A stretch of 64,000 nucleotides of DNA. Origin: Chytridium lagenaria. Its lineage: Eukaryota; Chytridiomycota; Chytridiomycetes; Chytridiales; Chytridiaceae. The position numbers and the translations under genes were made by a program. The notes under the pieces are model-generated. The model saw nothing but the letters and a program-made list of their open reading frames with translations. It did no database searches and was not told the origin of the DNA. This document shows positions 13,414 to 53,800 of this stretch, in pieces (the stretch's first letter is position 1; every line of letters begins with the position of its first letter). Location: positions 156,915-220,914 of the forward strand of contig JAHLKC010000059.1 of the NCBI GenBank assembly GCA_025449115.1. The letters run 5' to 3'.

Positions 13414-16400
13414 ATGAAGTCTTTCGGAGCACTGCTTGCGGGACTTCTTTTGGCGCAGGTTGTTGGGGCGCAGAATGTGTGTACTGGACAGAGTGAGGGG
13501 GCAGTTGTTTGTGTTGATGGAACGAGGTTTACGATCTGTGCGAACCAAGGTGAGGGTGTGAGGAGTTTGTGAGAATGTGATCAAGGGTCTAGGAAAGGCT
13601 TTGGAAATTTGCGGGGTGTGAGGATGGGGTGACGGCGTTTTATGAGTATGATGGAGGGATCCTTGAATGAGAGCGGATGGATCGGAGAAGACTGAGAGGG
13701 GCTTGATGGATCGATAAAGGGAGATGTTGAAGGACGGATGGATAGTTTGGGGGGTTTTGTTTTGATGATTGCTGACAAGTGACATGTCTAACGCCTTGTT
13801 CTCTCTTTTCACCCAACCCCATCCCAACAACGATAAGCCCAAACACCTCTTCAAAGCTGTGGCGGTGGAACCGCCTGTTGCAGTGGTGTTTGCGCGAACC
13901 CCACCGACCCTATCTGCGGTGATGCTCTTTGCAAGGGAATCGCAGAGGGCGGTCAAGTATGCACAAGTTCAAACGCTTTCTCTTACTGTCAAAGCGGACG
14001 TGAGTTCAACCCCACTGGTCTTTCAATTGTGAACGTGACTGATTTCTTTGTTTTAGGTCTCACCCCTCAACAGGGTTGCGCGCCTGGTACCGTGTGCTGT
14101 GGTAACTCCTGCGTCCTCTCCTCGGATCCTTCGTGTAGTGCTCCCGCTCCTCCGGTCACAACCACCGTCGCTCCCGTCGTTCCTACAACTACCGTCGTAA
14201 TCGCTCCCACAACTACCGTCGCTCCAGTCCCCACAACTACCGTCGCTCCAGTCCCCACAACTACCATTGCCCCACTTCCTACAACAGCCCCTGCGCCCCC
14301 TCCAGCTGATTGCTCAACCGCTGAGGAAGGTGCCGCTGTCTGTGTCTCCGCAACCTCTTTCGACCGTTGCATTTCAGGACGTGAGTCATCTCCCTCATGA
14401 TTCCTTATACTCACTCTTTTTTTTTTATAAGGCGCCATCAACGCTGTTCAGCCTTGCGCCTTGGGCACTTTCTGCTGTGCTGGTACTTGCGCTGGTCTCA
14501 CAGATGATATTTGCCGTCGCCTTCCCGCCATTGGGAACCGCGCCGGTCACTACCACCGGCGGCTGCCGTAGTTCCTCCGGTTGCCACTACCACCGTTGCA
14601 CCAGTGATTCCCATCCTCCCAGTGACACCTGTGAGCCCCGTGACTCCCGGGACATCAGTATTTGGAAGCTGTTTGGGCGCTCAGGAAAACAGCATTGTTT
14701 GCGTGACGAGCACCTCGTTCAACTTTTGCCAAAACCAAGGTAAGGGTCGATTACTTTGCAATTCGAGATATCTTGCGCTAAACTTTATTTTTTTGGATAT
14801 AGGTATTGCTTCCTCCCCTGCCATTACTTGTGCTCCCGGAACTGTTTTGCTGCGCTGCTACGAACCGTTGTGACTATGCGACCAACTGCCCTGTCAACAG
14901 CACTCCTTGTACTGGGCAGCCGGATGCAAGCCAAAAATGTATCGACTCGACTCGCTTCACTCTTTGCTCTGCAGGAGGTTAGTCCATTAATTACAATCCC
15001 ATTTTTCCTTCTCAAGTTCAAGTTGATTTAACACTTTTTTACATTTTTAGAACCTACCCCATTCCAGACTTGTGCTCCTGGAACCGTTTGCTGCAACAAC
15101 GCCTGTGTTGGACCCACTAGCCCTGCCTGCGCTGGAGTTGTCATCCCTCCCCCTGTGACCACCACCGTTGCCAACGTCGTCCCTCCCGTCGCGAACCACC
15201 ACTCAAGTGCCACTTCCCCCCGCGAATGGTGTCGCCGGAACCTGCACAGGAATTTCTGACAACAACATCGCCTGCACGTCCTAGCATCACATTCAACTTC
15301 TGTATCAACCAAGGTAACATCCCATAGTAACTCTACTGTCGTTTCCTCAAGCTTACTTCTCTACTCTAGCTTTCGTCAACGCTCCAATCAGAACTGCGCA
15401 CCTGGAACTGTTTGCTGTGCTGACAGCAACCGTTGTGATTTCATTGGAAATTGTAAGGCTGTGCTTCCCCTCCTACCAATGCTGGTCCCACAACTACGGC
15501 TGCCTCTATTGTCCCCGGATCATGCGCTGGTATTGCCGACGATGGTATTATTTGCACGTCATACAACTCTATTGGATGGTGCCGTGGAGGAGGTTAGCCT
15601 CATATCTCTCTTTTTCGTACTTAACCCTTTGAATAGCTCTGCAGGTTGCAACTCAGCAGTATTGTGCCCTGGAACTGTCTGCTGCGCTGATACCAACACT
15701 TGTGATTTTGCATCAAACTGTAAGACCTTGTTGCCGACCCTCACCGCTGCGCTTCCAGTTTTCACGAACGTTCCGCCTGCCATTTTGCCCTCGGTTTTAA
15801 CTTGCGCGGGATTGGAGAATCAGAGGAACTGCTTGCGTTTCTGGAACTCAATTCAACTTTTGTAAAAACGGAGGTAAGCTTCCCTCGTATTTTAAGACAC
15901 TTTTAAGATCTGTTTCGCACCACGAACATATATTAATGTTTATTCAATTTCTATCAAACAGCTTTTATTGCTGACGCACCCAAACTTGCGCTACTGGTAC
16001 CGTATGTTGTGCTGACTCTGGTCGTTGCGACTTTGCGTCCAACTGCAAGCTTGCGCTTCCTGGTGGTCAACCTGCTCCCGGTGTTCCCGTTGTCACCAAC
16101 CCCGTGACTCCAGTGAACCCCGTCCTCGGAAGCTGCCAAGGTGCTGCTGACAACTCTATTGTTTGCACGTCCGCCACTCAGTTCAACTACTGTCTCAATG
16201 GAGGTAAACGCTTTTCCTCTTTTATGTAGCTAACATTTCGGCAGCTTTCGTCAATGCCCCTAGCCAATCTTGCAGTGGTGGAACTGTTTGCTGCGCGAAC
16301 ACCAACAAATGTGACTACTCTTACAACTGTGGTACTGTTTCTACCTGCTTCTTGCGTTGGTGTTTCCCACCGGAAACCCTGTCTGCATCGGTCCCATGAC

Positions 16401-18661
16401 CTTCAACTACTGTGTGAATGGAGGTGAGTTTCCCAAGTCTTCGCAACCAATGCTAACTCGCGCAAAAAGCTTTCATCAATAACCCTCCTCAGAGCTGTGC
16501 AAGCGGTACCCGTGTGCTGCGCTGATACTAACCGTTTGTGACTTCCCGTCAAACTGTGGGTCTGTGCTTCCCCTCAACTCGGAGGCGGCACCACGACAGC
16601 CGTTCCTATCGCCACCACCACCGCCCCTGTTAACCCCATCGTGACCACTACTAATGCCGCTGGCCCTGCTCCCACAGTTATCCCTGGAAGCTGCCAAGGT
16701 GTGGCTGACAACAACATTGTCTGCACGTCAGCTACAACCTTTAACTTCTGCTCGAACGGAGGTGAGTTTTCTTTTAACTAATATGAATATATAATAACCG
16801 TTATTTCTTTATAACAGTCTTTGTAAACGCTCCAAGCCAGAGCTGTGCTGGCGGTACTGTCTGCTGTGCCGATAAAAACGTTTGTGACCTTGCTTCCAAC
16901 TGTGGAAAGACTTTGCCCCCAGTTTGCAGCGGTAAAGCCGACGGTGCACCGGTCTGCTTGTCCCGCAATACCTTCAACTACTGCAGGAATGGAAGTAAGT
17001 TTATCCTTTTTCTTGTTTTCATGGCGATATATTTTTTCTTACAAACACTCTACAGACTTTGTTACCGACCTCCCCCAAAGCTGTGGAGCGGGTACCGTCT
17101 GCTGCGCTGAGACTGGTCGTTGCGCCTTTGAAAATGAGTGTACATCCGTCCTTAACCGTCCCTTTGCACCTGCCGAATTTATTCAAAACATTCTTCAATT
17201 CGCTGCAAACACCCCTACGTCGTCATCTGTCAGTATTTGCGCTGGTATCGAGGACAATGCGCTTGCTTGCATGAGTCCAAGCACTTACGCTATCTGTGGT
17301 GGAGGACGTAAGTGTTATTCATAAGCCATTATCGTTCATCATTTCTAATGTGTGTTTACTTCATATTTTATCTAGTTGCGATTACCGGTGCCTTACCTGT
17401 CGCCCCTGGAACCAAGTGTTGCCAAAACCGCATCGTAGTCGCGAGCGCTCCGGAATGTTCACTCCCCCAAATATGCACAGGTCGAAGTGACGGCATGGTG
17501 TGCACCAGTAACACCCAGTACACTGTCTGCTTGAACAATGGTAACGCGTATGTTCTTTGTAATATTTTACTGATGTCTTTTGATAGTCGCTATTGTTGCT
17601 CCTATGCCTTGCGCTCCTGGAACATCTTGCTGCAACAACCAGTGTGTTATCGGTGAATGCTCCAGCCCTATCAATCCCATCACCCCTCCGACTCCCACCA
17701 ACCCCGTGCCAGTCCCGGTTCCAAGTCTTCCCCTTAACTCTTGCGACGGTGTTCCCGACTATGGATCCACTTGCAGTGGTTTCTACACCTTTAAGTACTG
17801 TTTGGCTGGATGTGAGTTGCTTTTTGCTATTTCTTAACAGAATGTGCACTACTTACTTACACACGTGCTTCTCTTTAGCTCTAATCCCCCGCCAAGTTGA
17901 CCAATACTGTGGTTTCACTCTTTCTGGAAAGGCTCTCGCTTGCTGTCCTGATGGCACCCAGGCCTCCTGCAAGGAAGCCAAGTACTGCAAGTCTCTCATT
18001 GGTGTTCCCCCCTCAGCCTCCCAAGCCCGAGGATCCCCCTGGAGTTTGCAAGAATGTGGAAGACGACGACCAAGTGTGTATCGACAATGTGCGCTACTCT
18101 ATCTGCAGGTCTGAAAACCCCTTCCTCAGTGCCTCTTGTGGAGAGGGGACTATTTGTTGCAAGAAGAATGGTCAATGTCTTACTTCCAGACAATGTTCCG
18201 GTGAAGCTGTCGAAATCGTCAAGCCCGTAAACCCTTGCAGCTTCTCTGTTGACGGATGGGATACATGCTCTGACAACAACCTCGCGGTCTTTACTTGCAA
18301 GAACAAAGGTTCGAATGCTTTACTTTTTGTTCACAATATTTAATCCACCTTTTGCAGAGGTCGACATTATCAGGGAGTGTGGGGCTGGAACCAAATGCTG
18401 CCCTTTCACAAGATCTTGCGTCACTGAAGATCAGTGCAAGGACCCATGTCTCTCCAGGGCCCGACAACGCCCTTGTCTGCCAGGACCTCTACACATTCGG
18501 CATTTGCAGGAATCAACGTAAGTATCACACATCAACCTTCTTCATTTATCATCCATATTGAAACACTTCCTTTTAAAGGTATCGGTGGTACGCTCGGCTG
18601 CTACAGTGGCAGTGTGTGCTGCAGGCGAACCCAGTCCTGCGACGAACCCAAGAACTGCTAA
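13414..18661 (+). CDS. Secreted multi-module CBM19-like cysteine-rich protein, 18 exons
   Basis: Signal peptide MKSFGALLAGLLLAQVVGA, then about 18 tandem modules. The module pattern is C-x-G-x5-C-x6-F-x2-C-x-N-G, then x8-C-A-x-G-T-V-C-C-x5-C-D-x4-C. The first half matches the family 19 carbohydrate-binding (chitin) domain seen in yeast chitinase; the extra CC...C...C part is added. Exons: 13414-13549, 13838-13999, 14057-14380, 14432-14739, 14803-14977, 15051-15313, 15370-15592, 15645-15873, 15962-16203, 16245-16423, 16470-16761, 16818-16994, 17056-17307, 17376-17540, 17587-17811, 17879-18308, 18358-18517, 18579-18661. All 17 introns are phase 1 and split each module just after its F-x2-C-x-N/G. 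Exons 2, 3 and 12-15 are exact multiples of three. Exons 4-11, 16 and 17 are off by one or two bases where the frame breaks. Thr/Pro linkers look O-glycosylated. No catalytic domain was found, so this is probably a wall- or chitin-binding surface protein. Confidence 0.8.
14208..14279 (+). repeat. 24-bp tandem repeat coding for a Thr/Pro linker
   Basis: Three units starting cacaactacc; the first two are identical and the third is diverged. They encode TTTVAPVP-type mucin-like linker between two cysteine modules. Such in-frame minisatellites change length easily. Confidence 0.75.
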
Positions 18662-19445
18662 AAAAACTCATCTTGTACGCATTCAATGCGCCTATATTTC
18701 CTTTATGTTCATTCTTTATAAATTTTCGTTTCAGGAGAGACTTACGCACAGGCCGCAAGTGACTTACAACCCCCCATTTGTTCAATATTTCCTATAATGA
18801 CCTGTATAATTACCTTTTAACGTGCATATTTCTTATAATATTTTTTTTCGCGCCTCAACCTACTTCCCACACTTTTAATCTGTGAACACTCGTTCGTCAT
18901 GCGCAAAAAATCACTCCTTCCGACTCCATCGATGTTCAAATAAATGTAAAAACTAAAATTATAAAGGCCTTCAACAACATTTACATTATAATTCTATAAC
19001 TATAACGCGAAACCAAGACCGCATTAAACCTCTTTGTTCGATCGGTTTTTGATTTCTTCTTTTTTAAGTGACTACTGCATTTTCGTCCCTCCTTCTCTTC
19101 CAAAATCAGAAGGTAAATGAGATTCCTTCATCATACAGACTTTTCTCTTCCTTAGACTTCATTATTCTGTTTGAAGCATTTTGTTAGCTAATAGATCTTT
19201 ATCAATAATCAACCAGTTGTTGGTCAGTGGACTGTAAAGGCGAATATATTTCCGTAACAAGAAATCTTCGAAGCAATAACGATGCAGATATTTACATTTA
19301 CGTGGTAGGAAACTAAACAACAAAAACGAAGGTATGCACTCCCCCCAAAAAAAGTATATCTGTCAGTGCATCGTTCCAGAAATTCCGTCACTCACTATAT
19401 TCTTCAGCAGCAACCGCCAAAATAATGCGTCGTCATATCTCTCCC
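18662..19445. other. Intergenic spacer between convergent genes
   Basis: No gene seen. AT-rich; AATAAA-type and related signals occur near 18940 (caaataaatg). It presumably holds the two 3' UTRs. Confidence 0.4.
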
Positions 19446-22400
19446 TCACATAACCGAACATGCTTTACTCTTCACCCTCCCCGTCTTCACCTCCCCGAAA
19501 CTAATCGCTGGCATCAATGCCGCCTCCGCCGCCTCCCTAGCCCGTCTCGCCCGCTCCTCCACAGCCGCAACCCCTAACTCCTGCGTCCCATCATCAGATC
19601 CGACAAGCGAGAAAACCTTACAAGCCCCAATTCCTCTTGAAAACACTGTGCCCCGAGGTAAAAACCGGAACTGATCTTCAGCGTGGTCACGAACGGTTTC
19701 TGTGACGAGAATAGTGGAGATGGAGAGAGTTTCGAGGTGGTAGCAGGTGTTGACTAAAAGTTTGTTAGTGGAGGTTTACGAGATGTGGTTGGCCGTACCT
19801 AATGCTCGCCATGCGGCTTCGACACCTTCGAGGTCATCGGCGCAGTCGGCTGGAATTTCGTCACCATGGATACCTATGCGAGCTTGAACTTGGACGCCTG
19901 TCTCTTTGGCGTATTCTGCGAGTGTGAGCGAAAGATCCAGAACCATGTTGATGAGGTCGTGACAGGTTTTGCCGTCATCTTCGAGGCCCGTGACCGCCAC
20001 TTTGTGATTCAAATTGAAGGGTTAAGAAATGGTATTGACCACGAGCAGTTAACTCGCATTAATTAAGAAACTCACTAAACTATTGAAGGTGGTTTCGTTC
20101 ATAACGTTAAACAACGGAAAGGTCAAAATTAGATTGATTGAATGTTATAGTGAAATGCATATAAACACAGAAGCAACATTACCAAATTCCCTCGCTTTCT
20201 TACACTAGTAATCCCATGCTGCATCGCAAGCACATCAAACATTTGCGAAAAATCCGCCAAAAGCTCCACTTTTGCTCTCGGCCTCAACACCTCCTCCCTC
20301 CCACCCCCAAATCTCATCTCCTCCAACTCCGGCACCCCTTTCACACCTCCACCCTTCCTTCCTTGTCTCATCATAGCAACTGCCAACGCCTGCTCCATCC
20401 CCTTCGCATTCGAATTCACCGCTAAACCCGTCAAACTCTGCACGCTCACCGCGACATCCACATCATGCGGAGTTATGGGTTCTACTATCATTATAAAGGG
20501 TATCGCATAGAGGTCATCCATGGGATGGGTGCGGGGTTTTGAGCGGGGGGCTAGTAGAGAGGTGAAAGAGGTGGAGGAGGTTGTGGAAGGACGGGAAGGG
20601 TTGAGGGATTGAAGGCGGTGTTGGAGGAGGTGGGCGCCGTAGGTCGGGTCCATGATGTATGCAAGGGATTCGTGAGTATCGACGCGTTCCCAGACTGTAG
20701 AGAGAGTAGCGGCAGCCTCAGAAGTGAACTGTTCTTCCTGCAATATCGAGCATTAACCTCTCACTAAAGCGACAAGAATGCCCCCTACCTGATGAGTAAC
20801 AGCTCTATAAACCCCTTCGAAAAACGCAACCAACACTGCGACAGGTCGATGATAACTCCAAATAACTTCCGATGCACTCCTCATCACATCTTGGCCCACA
20901 AATCTTCCCACATGTAGTTGCAACGAGATTGGATGTGGATCCATCGTCAGTGCGTAGGAATGCGGTTTATCGAGACACGCCAGACAAAGATCTGTGAACT
21001 TTTCTTCGCCGATGGTTATATGGCAGGGGCCGCGATAGAATGGACTATAGAGTGGAGGGAGCTGGCGTGATTAGTGAAGAAAAGGAGGGGGAACATACCC
21101 GTCTTCTGCCGCGTTTATTTTGAGGATCATCACATTTTTGGCGCGGAGGGTGTTACGGATGATGTCGAGGCACTGAATAAATAAGGGTTTAGAAAACAAA
21201 GTCCCATAAAAAAGCTATGTATGAAAACTGAAATAAATAACCCCCCCCCCCCCCCCCCCCACCCCTCTCTTGAAAATAAAAAAGAACGACATCATAAAAA
21301 ATGGAAATCGAAGGAAACCAATAACAAAATTTAATCGATAGTGAGCATCTCTTCAGCATCAATGTCTTAATTAAAACGTCCAACACATTAACTTCACGTC
21401 AACAAACACAAAGAGAAACCATAAGCAACGTTACAACAAAACGCGAAAACTTACCTGCCCCAACACCGCTCTTCCACTCTCTTCATCCCAACTCCTTCCC
21501 CTCTCAAGTCCATGTAATCTATCCCTCGCGCACCTCAGATTCTCATTAATCCCATTCTCCCACTTTCTCAATAAAACCTCCACCTCCCCCGCCGCCCACT
21601 CTGTCATCTGTTTCAACAGTTCTGCTTCCTGCGCGGTGAAAGTCTGCCGCGCAGCTCCACGAATCGAAAGCGCGCCAATCTTTATCCGCCACTATAAAAA
21701 ATTATAAGCGAGGATTGAATACTGCAGACTACCTTGTTACAAGCGGTGCACCGGCGTAAAATTCCAAACCCCTTCGAACCTAACCTCATATCAGTCACCC
21801 ATATAAAAACAAACTTGAACCATACCATCGGTTTCTCTTTAAACCGCGTCTCTCTCCTTGCATCCAGTACCCGAATCCCCCGCGTTTATCATCTCTTATT
21901 GCGTAATGACAGAACGAATCCGCGCGAGCTTCTCGAGTCATGGAGGGTGGAAGAAATCCGCCTCTGTCGCAGACACTCCACCAGTGGACAGTGGAATGGT
22001 CGACGATGGTGAGGATGCAGACGTCGGCTTCGAGGAGACGTGCGGTCATGGTGGTCACGTTGTCGAGACGGGAGTCTAGGAAAGGCGAGTCAAATGAGAG
22101 TAAGAGAAGAGTGGTTTCAATAAGTCAGTCAATTTATGGAGAAGATATCAAGAATGAAAGCAAAAAATAAGGCAAAAGAGGAAAGATGAAAACGTTATGG
22201 AAGTGGGATGGAGCAAGGTGAAAAAATAGAGAAAAAGGTTCACCTCTTCCAACCTCAAAAAACCCCAACGTCCTCAACCCCACTAGTCTCTCCGCTCTCT
22301 TTCCTCCGCCGATGTCGACAACCCCAATAACCGCCCCCTCGCACCACCCTCCTTCCCTCCCCCATCGCCACCCCTCCGTCTCGCCTCCTCCCTCGAAGTC

Positions 22401-23170
22401 CTCGCACTCGCCACTCGTCGATGTTGCTGCCAATTCCGTTCCCTCATGACGTCCTCCAACCTCCCCTCCGTATCCCTCTGGACTTCAAGTGGATCAAGGC
22501 GTTTATCAATATCAAGAGGTTTCGTATCATCCGTGTCAAGTCGTTTCGATGCGTCGACTTCGAAACGATTCGGTTTTTTTTGTTGGAACTTCGGGGAGGA
22601 TTGAACGGGATGCAGGGAGAGATGGGGGTTCAATGTGTTCGTGGCTTAATATAACGCTTCCATATAAATTCATGACACCTTTTGAAGCTTCGAAACCTGC
22701 ATCATTCGTCCAGTCATCATGTTTCTGCTCATCAGCCTTCAAATTCTCAGGTTTCTTCTCAGGTGCTTTCACTCCTAACGGTGCCAGCACCCCTCTTCCA
22801 AGTACCCCCCTCCCTGCCCAATAGGTGCCAACCTCCCAAGTCCTCTCACCCCACCCTCACTCTCCTTTGGAATATCCCAAACTTTCTCCCCGCCCTCTTC
22901 CTCGTTTTGTTTAAACTCATCATCTTTCTTTCGTCTTCGTCCTTCCTTCCCCTCCTTCCCCTCCTTCCCCTCCTTCCTCTTCTTCTTCTTCTTTTTCTTC
23001 TCAATCACTTCACCCTCTTCTTTACCCTCCGCAATCCCTACAACTTTTACATTCACCCCACCCTCCTTCTCATCTACACCGCTGTCTCCGGTAACAGCTC
23101 GTCGTCTTACATCCACTTCTTCCCTCTCCCCGAAAGCTGGTGTCGACGTTTGTCGTCGGCGAACCTCCAT
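19446..23170 (-). CDS. GAF-domain protein with degenerate class III nucleotide-cyclase domain and CaaX end
   Basis: Exons in order (minus strand): 23170-22244, 22075-21741, 21691-21455, 21172-21099, 21061-20789, 20737-20183, 19999-19799, 19753-19446; about 970 residues. The first 300 are disordered, with a Lys/Glu run. A GAF domain follows: LLEADVCILTIVDH, then DSFCHYAI, FYAGAPL (one base missing) and RIKIGALSIRG. A second, weaker GAF-like region spans exons 4-6. The C-terminus matches class III adenylate/guanylate cyclases: VELLADFSQMFDVLAMQHG, then RIGIHGDE, the A-x-W-x-x-L-G-N-T segment, and ILVTETVRDHAEDQFRFLPRG...LVG. Key residues look replaced: the G-D metal aspartate reads G-N, the base-selecting position is Ala, and the transition-state Arg reads His. 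The last four residues, CSVM, form a CaaX box, so a prenylated membrane-bound regulator is likely. One splice junction (20182/19999) is one base out of phase. Confidence 0.7.
21241..21260. repeat. C20 homopolymer inside an intron
   Basis: Twenty consecutive C on the plus strand (poly-G in the transcript) inside the 282-base intron 21173-21454 of the GAF/cyclase gene. This intron is longer than most others here. Confidence 0.9.
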
Positions 23171-36865: not shown

Positions 36866-38915
36866 ATGGACGCTCCACATCAGCCTTCTAGAAGGCCATC
36901 ATCACCAGCAGCACCACGTCCTGTCACTCCTGTGGCTGTCAGCAATGGAGACGGGAGGTACCGGTATTCGATCAGGAGGCCATCACATCCTACTCTGGGA
37001 CCGAATCTGAGTAGCCTGAGCCCCTTGCTGCTCCCCTCTCACCGACACCGGGAAGAGGATGGTCGGCAAGTCCGGGTTCTGGTAGTCGGACATATGAAGG
37101 GGCTGGAAATGCCCCATTTCGAGCAGACTATCCAACACCGTCTGCAGCTGCTGTTGCCGCCTTTTCAGACCCCCGAATGATGAAAGCGGGGGCATCTTTT
37201 GTTCCGCAGAGGCAGAGAACCCTGGGTCTCCCATACAGAGGACTCAGGTGGTGTATTTAACGGGATGCAGCCGAGAGTGAACTTCAGCCAGTGGCTGGAC
37301 GAATCACGCCAGATGATGACGACAACAAAGAGAGTGAAGAATTGGATCCGGCAACAGAGAAGAAGAAGAAGATGAAGAACTTAAGATTATTATTATGACT
37401 GTCATCGGGTTTCTCTTGTTTCTTGCGACCGTCGCCACCTTCGGCGTTCCAATATGGTATTGTTGGTGATTCATCCGACTGTTGCTAACATTTTTTGTGA
37501 TCTCTAGAAAGAAGGAAACTTGCGCTTACAGACTGCTTTCACGTCGGCACCTCAAGGGAAATTCTCATCATCGTTTAACTTCACGAGTAATCCTATCAAA
37601 GATCCCAATTCGATTGATCAAAGTTCGCCAGAATTTATATGCAACAACTTTGATCTCGTGCAACTCTTTGCCAATGTTTCTTCCGTCGATACCGTTGGAG
37701 GAACCATGAAGCTTCATTTTTTGTTTTTCCCGTGTGGTAGGTTTACTCGTACCATAAGAGTCATTACAGGCCATTTTACTGACATATTCGCAAACAGGAA
37801 AGTTTATCAGTGTGGATCCTGTTCATGGAAGAAGCAACATTGCCGTCAACATGAACATCACAATAGGTTGGTCTTAATAATAAAAATGCGCGCATTTTTT
37901 AATGAAACTTTTCTTTTAGACTCGAAGGTATTTCGGTTTGCCGACGATCTACCCATGTCCTCCCAAGACATCGTAACCCGTTTTGCCCGCGGTGACGTCA
38001 ACAATTACCCGATTGAAACCTACGAATCCAATGCCTTCCAAATATCAGGCAGCTATTTCCCTGAAACATCCTCCAATGTCAGCTCTCCCGTTCCCATTCG
38101 TCTTTCCATTGTTGGAGCACTACAAACTTTTTCCATCGATATTCCTGAGGTTATTGACGTCAGCGAGACAGGTGATGGAACGTTGTTGTCGGTGAGGGTG
38201 AGAGTCCGACGATCGTTCACGACAAGAGCATTCTCGATATTTGTGATGGGTGTGATGTGGGTGCTATCCATCTTAACGTTCTGCTTGTCGGTTTCACCCT
38301 GGATCCGAAACTATAAGGCTGAAGCACCGACATTGGCCATTCCCAACACGCTCTTGTAAGTTTTTTCGTTATATCACCTAGGTTCGCTTTAGGCCTAAAC
38401 CCTTAATATCATTAATAGATTCGCCTTACCTGCCATCCGAAACTCCCAGCCTGGAGTTCCGGCGATTGGGTACGTTATATCTTTTATATTTTTATCATGA
38501 TGCTAATTATCAATTATTTGTTTTGTAGAGCTACCGTTGATGTTGTGTCGTTCTTCTGGTGTGAGATGCTCACTGCGGTTTCCTGTGAGTACACATTCTT
38601 CACATCACGTATCAAACTAATGCCTTACTTCTATCTACAGCTCTTATCATGCTCACCAACTACATTCTTTACACCTATTATCCACCAAAGCCTCGAACTC
38701 CAACCCCCGCACCACCGCCGCCGGAACCTGAAACCTTGAAAGAACCCGTCCATGGGCCTCCTGTGAACGCTGAGCCTCCGCCGTCTTCCCGACGAAGAAA
38801 CTGGGCGGGGTCGTTGAGGAGGAGGGGTACCGAGTCTGATGCGGCGAGAAGGAGAACGAGGTTTTCGAGCGTGACAGTGGCCAGAGGTGCTGGAGGTGGA
38901 GGGAGAGGGGAGTAA
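36866..38915 (+). CDS. DUF4436 family membrane protein
   Basis: Starts MDAPHQPSRRPSSPAAPR, a disordered cytoplasmic head, followed by an acidic stretch and TM1 (TVIGFLLFLATVATFGVPIW, about 37395-37456). The body has the DUF4436 layout: a large extracytoplasmic part with NYPIETYESNAF, then three helices near the end: FSIFVMGVMWVLSILTFCLS; FALPAIRNSQPGVPAIG; VDVVSFFWCEMLTAVS/SLIM. The run L-F-A-L-P-x-I-R-x-x-Q-P-G-x-P with the later DVVxFFW is the mark of the family. Introns: 37457-37507, about 37737-37797, 37867-37919, 38356-38418, 38470-38528, 38585-38640. The basic, Pro-rich tail ends at 38915. Two frame breaks lie in the head region. The family function is unknown; the protein is probably in the plasma or an internal membrane. 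Confidence 0.75.
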
Positions 38916-45571: not shown

Positions 45572-47746
45572 ATGACTAGATCAGTAACGTCAACTGCCCT
45601 CATTGCAACAGCCACGGCAGCCGTCGCTATCCCTGCTGCCTTTCTAGCGTACTTGCATTCCATCTCCCGCAAACCTGTCGTAAAGGGTGTTCCTCATCCA
45701 CCACCACCGCCTATCATTGGTAGCATTTACAGCATCGTAGGATATACCCAATCTCTTGTTCATCTATTGATATAACGCATTACATTCTCTCTAACGATTT
45801 GTTAAGTTGAGTGACTTTGACTCCCGTTACGAAACCTTTACCCAATGGGCGAACACCTACGGACCGACATGGTAAAGCTAGCAACTCGCATTCCATGAAT
45901 TTGAAATAGTCTGTTGAATGGATCATCTAACGATGCTTTGCCGTCCCATCCAGGACCCTAGCAGTTGGTGCTGTCCCTTTGATCCCGATGGTAATGACGG
46001 TTTGACCCTCTTGTCATCGAACACATTCTCAAGACTAAGTTCGATAACTATGTTAAAGGTATGCAACTCTATCCGTCAATTGCTCTTTGTTTAACTACAA
46101 TATTTGCTAACTTTACATTGGAATTGCAGGAGAGAGACTGCATCGTCTCCTTAACCCATTGCTTGGAGATGGTATTTTCAGCACAGATGGACATCAGGTG
46201 AGAAGCGCCATACTTTTATGTTTTTGGAATCTAGTATTCATCAGTGTTTAGTGGAAGTGGCAGAGGAAGGTGTCGTCCCACATCTTTACCGGCAAAAACT
46301 TCCGCGAGGTTGTCGAGTAAGTTCTTCTATCATACATTTACATTCTCTTCGTTATCATTGTACGTCCGCTAAAATTCGTGACATGATTTTAATAGAACGG
46401 TCATTCATGAAGATATGAAGAAACTCGTCACAGTTCTTGGTTTGGCAGCCGATGACAATCGCGAGATTGATCTCCATCTTTACCTCCACTGCCTGACAAT
46501 GGACACGTACGTCTTTGATATCTATTTCTCGTATTTACATTTACTCATCAAATGTCCTACAGCTTCGGTAAAATCGGTTTCGGTATCGACCTAAACGCCC
46601 TCGAAAATCCAAGTTCTCCACCCCCTTTTGCAAAGTCCTTTGACACTGTTCTCCCCATCCTCAACCGCCGTTTCGCCAACCCCTTCTTCTGGGTCGTGGA
46701 GCCGATATCAGGGGATGACCGCGTGCTGATGGAACATATGAAGATTGTGAACGGATTTGTGGAAGAGAGGATTACAGAGAAAAAGGCAAATATGCTGAAG
46801 GAGATGCTTCACAAGGAGCGGAGGTAAACACAGGATTTGCTGGATCTTTATATCGCTTATGATCCCGATATGACCGATAAGCAGTTAAGGGATATGTGTT
46901 TGAATATGATGTTGGCTGGTATGATGCCATTCTTTCCTTCTTTTCTTGTTTAACCCTTATCGCCTTTAGGTCGTGATACAACTGCTCAGGCTCTATCATG
47001 GGCGTTCTGGATTCTCTCTTCACACCCCGACGTCGCCCAAAAGATTCACGATGAGGTTACCTCACTTATGGGAGACCGTCTTCCAGGTTACGATGAAGTT
47101 AATCAACTTAAATACACGAACGCTGTGTACGTATCATCTTAAACTTGGTTTTTTCTCTTTTGTAATCTATCATAAGCGTGTTTGTTTTTTTTGCTAAATG
47201 TATACATGACAGATTCATGGAAGTCCTTCGATTACATCCTAGCGTACCAGGAGATTTCAAAGTCGCGGTCGAAGCGGTATGTTCTTTTCACATTCTCCAT
47301 ATCCTTTTCACAAATGCGATTTGCCATTCTAATATATTTACTGCCAACAGGATGTTCTCCCTGGTGGTATCCACATCCCTGCTGGCACCCAAGTCAACTG
47401 GTAAGCGCCCACCATCCCCACCCTCCCCCACTCACCACCCCTTTCAGGCTTCCCTACGCTATGGGCCGCATGGAATCCCTCTGGGGACCTGACGCGACCT
47501 CTTTTAACCCCTCCCGGTGGCTCGACGAGAACAACAACATTCGTCGAGAATCCCAATACAAGTGGGCCGTCTTCAACGCTGGACCGAGGGTTTGCCTTGG
47601 TCAACAGATGGCGACTGTGGAAGGTGTTATGACGCTTGCGACGTTGTGTAGGGAGTTTGAGTTTCAATTAATGCCAAATGCCAATGTGAGGTACGGGAGT
47701 AGTCTGACGTTGGGTGATGAAACATGGGTTGGCTTATGAAGGTTAG
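45572..47746 (+). CDS. Cytochrome P450, CYP52-like (copy 2)
   Basis: Start MTRSVTSTALIATATA, a hydrophobic anchor, then the hinge GVPHPPPPPIIGS. Motifs in order: YGPTW; GDGIFSTDGHQ, intron, WKWQRKVSSHIFTGKNFREV (C-helix); FGKIGFGIDLNALENPSSPP; I-helix A-G, intron, RDTTAQALSW; K-helix MEVLRLHPSVP; DVLPGGIHIPAGTQVNW; LPYAMGRMESLWGPDA; haem FNAGPRVCLGQQMA. Exon borders are the same as in copies 1 and 3. Frame breaks are near 45990 (T/D-P-L-V), 46825 and 47712; the end is set to TAG at 47744-47746 by likeness to copy 3. Substrate unknown; the family usually hydroxylates long-chain alkanes and fatty acids. Confidence 0.85.
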
Positions 47747-50885: not shown

Positions 50886-53800
50886 TCACTTCTGCTTTTG
50901 ACGGTTGAGGACGATCATTAACACAAACGCCACAACACGGTAAGCAATACCCAAACCCAACATAGCACACAAATTACGAGTTACCTTGTTTGCCTCATAC
51001 CCCCCATAACTCAACGCAGGCCTCAAATCATAAATGTTAGAGTAATTCTTAATCCACAACCAGTACTGCGCTTCCGCAGCCCATCGGTTAGCTCCCAAGC
51101 TGAAAATCCAAAGGTAACCACCTTCAGCCGCCGTTTCAAGGTCAAGCCCGAATCCACAAAACACGGCCATAAACAACCCGACAATGACGGCAACAAGGGC
51201 AGATTTTTCGCGACGAACAAGCATGGAGATGATGCTGGCAACTCCGTAGACGCAGAAGAAGTTGAGGAGGACGAGGAGGAATTGAAGCTCAACCGGGATG
51301 GCAGGTTTGGCGAGGAACAGGAAGATTGCGGTGAAATGGATGGATGAGATGATGATGCGGCTGATCACGCTGAGATTTTTTCCCTAAGAAATAAAATATT
51401 TCTATTTAGTTGAAATCCAACAAAGGAAAAACGGGTGGATGAATAGTAAGCTTACAAGGTAATAGCTAAAACGGTTGTGACCAGATGCAGCCTCGCGCCA
51501 ATAAATGGGTTTTTCTTCCCCAAACACATTGACTCCAGCAGGTCCAGCGGCAAGTGCAATGGCAATACCGACAAGCATGCCATCTGTCAACAGAAAAAAA
51601 AGCAAAGTTAATGTCTAATCAAGAAAGTGGGGGAACGCGTATAAACAGAAAAGCTTACAGAGACCGACGAACCAGTGCAGATGACTGGACGACGTAAGTA
51701 CATATGGCGACTTCAAAACACCGGCAAACGGCTCAGACAATCGAGAGGCAGCACCCATAATGAAACCAGCAAAAAATCCCACAAAAGCTTCCAGGAAGAA
51801 AGCTCCCACAAATCGACTCTGCTGAAGAAGTGACCTGTTATGGGCATACCAGATCTGGCTTAACGCTCCCGCTCCACGAGCCCGGGAGATAGTAGCCATC
51901 TTTTCAACCCCAAGACTTCCAGTCGAGCTGTCACCTTCCGAACTAGAACCAGTGCTTGTGAGCGTGACCTTTGGAACGACACTGAAATCATCCTTTTCAG
52001 CTCTGAGGCTTGTAATGTTGAAACCGCCTGACGCCGTGATGCCACCGGATTCCACAAATTGAGACCAAGCGTCCACAATCTCCTCCGCAGACTTGACGTC
52101 ACCGTTGGTCTCGGAGACACCACGACCAGAAAGGATATCCATGAGAACGTCTGCAACGTTGGCGCCATCAGGGAAGGAGAAACCGAGAGCGGTAAAGTAG
52201 CTTCGAATGTGGATGACAGGGCCAAAGTAGGCCGTGCGGCCGCCAGGAGCGATGAGGAGGACGTCGTCGAAAAGTGAGAATACCTCAGCCCTAGGCTGAT
52301 GTATGACGGAGACGATGGTGAGGCCAAGGTGGGATGCTGAGCTTAGGATGGATGAAAGGTCGAGGGCGGAGGTAGAGTCTAGACCGGTGGTGGGTTCATC
52401 GAGGAAAAGGGATAATGGGGCTGTTTTGATAAAGTGGGCGAAGAAATGAATACTCATTGATGAGTAGGGGAACAATAGGTGATTAAGAAAGAAGCATACC
52501 AGCCGCGAGCTCCATTCCAACGTTGACACGCTTGCGCTGACCACCAGAGATGCCGCGGGAGAATTCATCACCAATTTGAGAGTTGGCAACATGTTGAAGG
52601 CTTTAAAATTTGGGACAGAATATTAACGTTAATCTGGGAAACAAGAAGGAATGGGAAAGGTAAAACGCTCACTTGAGGGCTTCAATGATATGATCCACGT
52701 GTTCGGCGACTTTTGCGGACGACCATGAACTAGGAAGTCGGACTCTAGCACTGTACATGATGTTTTCGCGGACCGTAAGTTCGCGAAGCATAATGTCGTC
52801 CTGAGGAACGTAACCAATGATCTTTTTAAACTTTTGCATCTCCGTAGTGACACCGTTAATGCGAAGCTCACCACCCGTGCGGGCAACTTTGCCCATCAGA
52901 ACGTTCATGAACGTGGTTTCTAAGAAACATACAGTTATACATAAACTAAAGCAAATAGTGTGATGATATCATATGTATACGTACTTCCTGCACCAGATGG
53001 TCCCATAATGGCAGTAAGTCGCCCAGCCTTGATTTCACCACTGACACCATGAAGAACAGTAACGCCCGATGGCAGTCTCAAGCTGAGATCCGAGAAACTG
53101 AAATTCATCCTCAAGTCATCGCCAAGAGCTTCACGGACACCATCCACCAACCTTCCCACGCGCGCTTGCATCTTCGAAATCTCAGTCTCATCAACACCAT
53201 CCCTCACGCTCACTACCGCGTTAGCAGCGATCTCTGGTGTCGTCTTCTCAACAGGGGTCTTGCGGAATCGTGCAAATAGGGCGAGAAGTCCCGCTGGGAA
53301 GATGGCTGAGAAGGGTTGCTTAGCTCGCTTCAACTCGACGAGACGTTTTGTTATAAAGAAGATGGCGAGGATCAATCGATGACGGCAACGATGATGAGAA
53401 GACCATAGTGCAATTGAACGGTTGTTCCTTTTGGGCATGAGGAGAGAAGCTGGCATTTGATGGGCTCGACGGTTCCCCTCAAGCTGGTGAGGTTGGTGGT
53501 CAGTCAGAGACAATAATTGTTTTTTGCATTGCAGGTGGGCTTACCAATAGTATCCAGCAGGGCTGATAGTATGTAAAAAAACAATAGAGAAGAAAGGATT
53601 AGCTCGATGTGGAGTGTGTCAGGGATAACAAGCTCGACGGACGAGGAGGAGGAGGAGAAGGAAGAGAAAGAAGTAGAGATAATGCAATATGTACGTACCA
53701 TGGGATGATTGTGCGAGGGTTGGGGCAGTAATTGCCAGTGAGGCAAGGCATGGGCTCATAGCGGCCTTGAGGCTAAAGAGAGGAAAGAATTAAAGAAAAC

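Follow-up and report, generated by a model that had tools for sequence, protein, structure and literature searches.

What does a protein do that joins GAF domains to a nucleotide cyclase domain bereft of catalytic residues and then ends in a CaaX box? The question is raised by a gene on the minus strand of the stretch analyzed here (the window: 64,000 nucleotides of Chytridium lagenaria, order Chytridiales; GenBank assembly GCA_025449115.1, contig JAHLKC010000059.1, positions 156,915 to 220,914; coordinates below count from its first letter). The gene spans approximately 19446-22645 and encodes, in this order, a disordered N-terminus, a first GAF domain (GAF1), a second one recognized by fold only (GAF2), long helices, a class III cyclase domain with an insert, and the CaaX box CSVM. 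The order of these parts is conserved, and the loss of catalytic residues recurs, in a family of 28 gene models (P0001-P0014 and P0082-P0095, the window gene's own model P0001 included). On balance, these proteins are probably prenylated, membrane-bound tandem-GAF sensors that act through a dead cyclase domain, and they look like an undescribed signalling protein family in chytrids.

A preliminary description, made from the sequence of the window, had placed the gene at 19446..22075. The end at 19446 stands: the last exon reads ...GRVKSKACSVM-stop (KSKACSVM, 19449-19472; stop codon, 19446-19448; minus strand). The other limit does not, and the gene continues upstream of 22075, with conserved N-terminal stretches (RLDPLEVQRDTEGRLEDVMR and HRRVASARTSRE) within 22388-22501. 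Open frames and GT/AG signals guided a manual choice of exon joins; from 21873 on, eight exons give 564 residues with no stop, ending in KSKACSVM. The same C-terminus is found in the public model from this contig (P0001, hypothetical protein BC829DRAFT_396175, Chytridium lagenaria; 616 residues, 95% identity over 95% of the query). P0001 starts inside GAF1, after the first of two frame changes, and omits 20 GAF residues at the second (aligned against P0002). P0002, from Phlyctochytrium planicorne, is 60% identical to the window gene over 93% of the query. The exon end near VRKRGN is uncertain, as the hand join stops at 20206 and the public model and relatives include VRKRGN.

The cyclase-homology domain proposed earlier was recovered both by sequence (Guanylate_cyc, PF00211, in the joined window pieces: 24.1 bits, Pfam cut-off 21.9) and by fold, with matches to the rhodopsin-cyclase domains 6sir, 5oyh, and 6aob; it was thus assigned to class III. 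The residues that mark an active cyclase (two metal-binding Asp; transition-state Asn and Arg) are not retained as a set. The first metal position, placed by strand in the structure model of P0007, is Glu in 17 and Gln in 1 of the 18 rows obtained by a motif search of the 28 models, with a pattern that required Glu, Gln, or Asp before Pro/Ala. The second, placed by alignment with three cyclases of the Chytridium lagenaria genome, is Asp in none of 19 rows (Asn 11, Ser 2, Arg 2, Leu 2, Cys 1, Gln 1); five of the models (P0084, P0085, P0087, P0089, and P0090) stop shortly beyond this position, possibly having read into an intron. Asp is retained there at three other cyclase loci of the genome. 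Of the NTASR-type (NxxxR) motif, 8 of 10 rows retain the Asn, with His in the two others; at the Arg site, six rows have His, two have Gln, one has Lys, and one has Arg. Because the second metal Asp is replaced in all 19 models that cover the site, the domain is most likely a pseudo-cyclase, as had been suggested for the window gene; the loss of catalytic residues proves to be a family trait.

Could the domain still make a cyclic nucleotide at an altered metal site, with Glu in place of the first Asp? The near-invariance of this Glu, its location close to where the modelled first strand ends, and the retained Asn would fit such catalysis. A second metal residue that is never Asp and is variable besides (five of these models ending soon after), together with the mostly replaced Arg, makes it very unlikely in our view. 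Past its first strand and helix, the domain is interrupted by a low-complexity insert (P0007 residues 736-903; window 20270-20467); in the P0007 model, the region between the first strand and the next conserved helix comprises a helix and this disordered insert, with a predicted local distance difference test score (pLDDT) <50.

The CaaX box is found in 7 of the 10 models that run through the cyclase domain (P0001, CSVM; P0002, CRVM; P0007, CNIM; P0013, CVIM; P0014, CAIM; P0093, CNVM; P0083, CTIL). The three others are P0009 (ending RARV), P0012 (partial, ending KFKR), and P0082 (ending with the domain). The remaining 18 of the 28 models stop earlier, their gene models being cut; in the window the boundary AWTxLG is a splice donor, and P0003, P0004, and P0008 either end there or run off it. 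The contig of P0083 is 3535 bases long and carries an open frame of 1172 residues, which suggests a transcript as its source and makes a splicing artefact at the C-terminus unlikely. When the last 120 residues of the seven tails were shuffled, a CaaX-type end appeared in 3 to 42 of 20000 shuffles per protein, and 27 of 21194 internal four-residue words in the 28 models matched the pattern. The CaaX Cys is the sole Cys of the last 120 residues in five of the seven proteins, and the 14 residues preceding the box include 3 to 5 Lys/Arg and 0 to 5 Asp/Glu. A chance origin of the box was rejected, since six relatives carry one too, with a1 and a2 residues that differ. Relatives lacking both box and GAF domain, which the preliminary description had named as grounds for giving up its reading, were not the outcome among the models that reach the cyclase end.

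From this box we infer prenylation and a membrane location. Met at the CaaX end favours farnesylation, and a farnesyl group on the C-terminal Cys would anchor the protein in the membrane (possibly a geranylgeranyl group in P0083, with its CTIL end). The genome holds prenyltransferase beta-family matches at three loci, an ICMT locus, and one Rce1-type match just above the cut-off (25.0 vs. 22.4 bits); these matches indicate only that the CaaX box could be used.

The GAF motifs listed in the preliminary description are all present (DSFCHYAI within 21879-21920, FYAGAPL within 21741-21770, and IGALSI within 21644-21685), and the pieces joined from the window, in which X stands for the frame break, match GAF (PF01590) at 25.6 bits (Pfam cut-off 22.4). 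The single open frames of the gene alone stay under the Pfam cut-offs for GAF and Guanylate_cyc. GAF scores 30.3 bits in P0002, and GAF and cyclase are both above the cut-off also in P0003, P0007, P0009, P0083, and, through the GAF_2 model, P0014. P0001 has no GAF match because part of GAF1 is lacking from that model; P0012 falls just below the cut-off (21.6 bits), and P0005 matches neither GAF nor cyclase. The search for the same plan in other zoosporic fungi, suggested at the outset, found the GAF-cyclase-CaaX order in several chytrid relatives.

A possible second GAF domain had also been noted. By sequence, its region matched a GAF model in none of 9 members at E 1, and no PDB sequence at E 1; in structure models of the relatives P0087 and P0007, the region shows a clear GAF fold. 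The presence of GAF2 is therefore supported by modelled fold only. The GAF folds match those of PDE6 (8ugs, 6x88, 9cxg, 8ufi) and the cyanobacterial structure 1ykd. The second whole-model fold comparison mainly spans residues 580-1065, with little on the GAF domains, for which a shorter model was made.

The named sources of the family are all chytrids, and eleven models are environmental. The sources include Chytridium, two Phlyctochytrium species, Chytriomyces, Rhizoclosmatium, Obelidium, Podochytrium, Physocladia, and two Entophlyctis species, as well as Chytridiales sp. JEL 0842, B. salamandrivorans (P0006), and one labelled Hompol1, which we take to be Homolaphlyctis. A single Entophlyctis helioformis gene is probably split between P0088 and P0093, each of which comes from a contig of 221935 bases. 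Each protein search scored the 7997 candidates sharing most words, and absence of the family outside chytrids is not proven, as the search depends on shared short words. Beyond the family, 67 of the 80 matches listed cover only 15-37% of the query and carry a GAF family; two of these (P0025 and P0032) come from a eukaryote set. In a tree of 16 models, in which P0088 represented P0093, models with a CaaX box lie on either side of the midpoint root. Entophlyctis helioformis, placed in Chytridiales by NCBI, yet groups with B. salamandrivorans (Rhizophydiales) in this tree.

The window gene shows one-base frame changes at two places, near 22290 and between 21879 and 21870, both of which are read through in relatives' models such as P0002. 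Two exon joins fit the relatives poorly (after GAPL near 21741, and around VRKRGN at 20186-20203). These irregularities would be expected of a decaying pseudogene. Nevertheless, the gene keeps 107 of 117 residues invariant in ten compared relatives (14 further columns, with gap or X, were set aside), and five relatives scored likewise keep 106/111, 91/105, 104/119, 116/128, and 116/120; the eight exons past the second break also join into one long open sequence. Because so many family-invariant residues are kept, the breaks are likelier to reflect an assembly error or very recent decay than an old pseudogene, and we hold it improbable that the Chytridium lagenaria copy is a decaying pseudogene. 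A recent duplicate elsewhere in the genome was looked for and rejected: in a search that scored the best candidates only, the 564-residue query matched its own locus and, weakly, C67 (E 0.96, 29% identity).

How might such a protein work? The tandem GAF pair would sense a small ligand, and the long helices (residues 547-576 and 579-614 in the P0007 model), taken as a coiled coil, would pass the change to the pseudo-cyclase. This domain would signal by protein contact rather than by making cyclic guanosine or adenosine monophosphate (cGMP or cAMP), most likely by pairing, through the helices and the cyclase fold, with an active cyclase or with itself. That the protein is a membrane-anchored pseudo-cyclase we regard as likely; that it acts through an active cyclase partner is plausible, a little short of an even chance. 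Mixed pairing is plausible since chytrid rhodopsin-cyclases are described as requiring heterodimers (PMC7655827). Under a competing explanation, the protein is a homodimeric membrane scaffold in which the GAF ligand reshapes the pseudo-cyclase, which then recruits a non-cyclase effector with no active cyclase involved. Both halves of the classical heterodimer site look damaged (the metal site and the Asn/Arg motif), so that, in a pair with an active cyclase, the pseudo-cyclase subunit would contribute no complete site; this damage and the long helices speak for the scaffold, which we nevertheless rate as rather unlikely. More specifically, and tentatively, prenylated tandem-GAF pseudo-cyclases on the membrane of swimming zoospores may bind a small ligand and switch active cyclases through mixed dimers. 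If true, this mixed-dimer reading would describe a fungal counterpart of PDE6-type membrane-bound GAF signalling. If flagellated fungi conserve such a lipid-anchored pseudo-cyclase, their cGMP/cAMP pathways would gain a regulator bound to the membrane; we know of no lipid-anchored pseudo-enzyme with a cyclase fold.

Several observations weigh against a prenylated tandem-GAF sensor with a dead cyclase domain. P0009 (Chytriomyces hyalinus) continues past the domain into an unrelated tail with no CaaX box, and none is seen in the Chytriomyces clade of four models (three cut, one ending RARV). The tail is not clearly basic everywhere, with 4 Lys/Arg vs. 5 Asp/Glu before the box in P0002 and P0007. 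The cyclase match is below the cut-off in P0002 (17.8 bits) and P0082 (17.7 bits); P0004 is below both cut-offs, P0006 is below the GAF cut-offs with no cyclase match, and P0013 has no Pfam match at E 0.01. The GAF matches of the whole-protein model have a root-mean-square deviation of 8-21. Decay of the active site is not complete everywhere, the transition-state Arg being kept in P0082 and replaced by Lys in P0093, and the Glu, being near-invariant, may itself serve some function, which counters a story of pure loss. Finally, given the frame breaks, the Chytridium lagenaria copy may itself be non-functional.

Features of the window gene, listed from its N-terminal to its C-terminal end.
Feature	Position	Strand	Basis
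N-terminal exon piece with conserved motif HRRVASARTSRE (22388-22423); gene start further upstream	22283..22645	minus	
GAF1 start RLVGLRTLGFFEVGR, in a frame differing from the preceding piece; donor 22243	22244..22289	minus	compare P0002 EERERDRLVGLRTLGVFEVGR
GAF1 exon 2, containing DSFCHYAIRDDKRG	21879..22075	minus	
GAF1 continuation past a one-base frame change, VLDARRETRFKEKPM	21826..21873	minus	models of P0002 and other relatives read through
GAF1 end (FYAGAPL, IGALSIRG) and linker helix; exons 21741-21779 and 21455-21691	21455..21779	minus	
GAF2; exons 21099-21172, 20789-21044, and first part of 20206-20737	20663..21172	minus	fold of the region in P0087 and P0007
Cyclase first strand FIMIVEPITP, Glu at the expected first metal Asp	20468..20497	minus	strand 702-713 of P0007 model, E711
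Cyclase stretch between first strand and next conserved helix	20270..20467	minus	
Cyclase helix and hairpin VELLADFSQMFDVLAMQHGITSVRKRGN; second metal Asp replaced (GN)	20186..20269	minus	
Cyclase domain part VAVTGLEDDGK...ARIGIHGDEI	19799..20000	minus	
Cyclase domain end (VNTCYHLE at the NTASR-type motif site) and tail	19461..19753	minus	
CaaX box CSVM and stop codon	19446..19460	minus	

The otherwise low-complexity N-terminus contains a short motif, HRRVASARTxRE (22388-22423, minus strand), which may be a phosphorylation or docking site. HRRVASAR is present in 9 of the 14 models P0001-P0014, and a related pattern in none of the 14 models P0082-P0095, many of them cut; residues 28-193 of the P0007 N-terminus have pLDDT <50. 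An intron of the gene holds a run of 20 C (21241-21260). Elsewhere in the window, Cys-rich units (such as CAPGTVCCADSNRCDF) occur in plus-strand open frames along approximately 5 kb (about 13837-18797). These frames are perhaps one multi-exon gene, and two of them gave no Pfam match. Neighbouring frames at 37508-38359, 47176-47739, and 50886-52622 match DUF4436, cytochrome P450, and ABC2_membrane_7 (Pfam), respectively.

Within the Chytridium lagenaria genome, three loci, C19 (L038), C44 (L039), and C14 (L040), have GAF and class III cyclase matches on one strand within about 2 kb. The GAF match is above the cut-off at C19 and below it at C14 (19.8 bits) and C44 (14.9 bits). By these matches, a GAF domain near a cyclase domain is not in itself unusual in this genome. 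The three loci differ from the window gene in keeping motifs of active cyclases (YIGDA in C19, C14, and C44; GDTVNTSSR in C44; GEAVNIASR in C14).

Chytrid rhodopsin-guanylyl cyclases and NeoR resemble the family in having a coiled coil and a class III cyclase domain, with the fold matches to 6sir, 5oyh, and 6aob given above. They are not known to have a GAF domain, and they are attached to the membrane through rhodopsin. The coiled coil and cyclase domain are described as highly conserved among three rhodopsin-cyclase proteins, which require heterodimers (PMC7655827). The family may not be tied to light sensing, and a tie to the eyespot is doubtful, because B. salamandrivorans has P0006 and B. 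dendrobatidis, a species of the same genus, is reported to be without the rhodopsin-cyclase system (PMC9616733). A link to the rhodopsin-cyclase eyespot is neither supported nor excluded; the word GAF does not occur in two papers on the eyespot (PMC9616733 and PMC12264004).

The cyanobacterial GAF-GAF adenylyl cyclases (CyaB1/CyaB2) share tandem GAF domains placed before a class III cyclase domain, and 1ykd is among the fold matches. They are active and not known to be prenylated, whereas the chytrid family has lost the catalytic residues and has an insert and a CaaX box. To our knowledge, the nearest known architecture is that of PDE6, with the domain order GAF-GAF-enzyme domain-CaaX. The GAF domains also match those of PDE6 (PDE6A/B/C), a likeness seen at the level of overall fold. 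PDE6 ends in an active phosphodiesterase, whereas the chytrid family ends in a cyclase fold without metal residues; no phosphodiesterase (HD) domain model matched in Pfam scans of P0001-P0006 and eight further relatives. PDE6 subunits are described as prenylated at a CAAX box (PMC8857470). Among the open-licence PubMed Central papers matched, no title or abstract beginning describes a dead cyclase with tandem GAF domains and a CaaX box, and those papers that combine GAF, guanylyl cyclase, and chytrid deal with other subjects. GAF-GAF-cyclase (cyanobacteria, by the title of 1ykd) and GAF-GAF-enzyme-CaaX (PDE6) are known arrangements, and what appears to be new is the union of a dead cyclase, tandem GAF domains, and a CaaX box in one fungal phylum.
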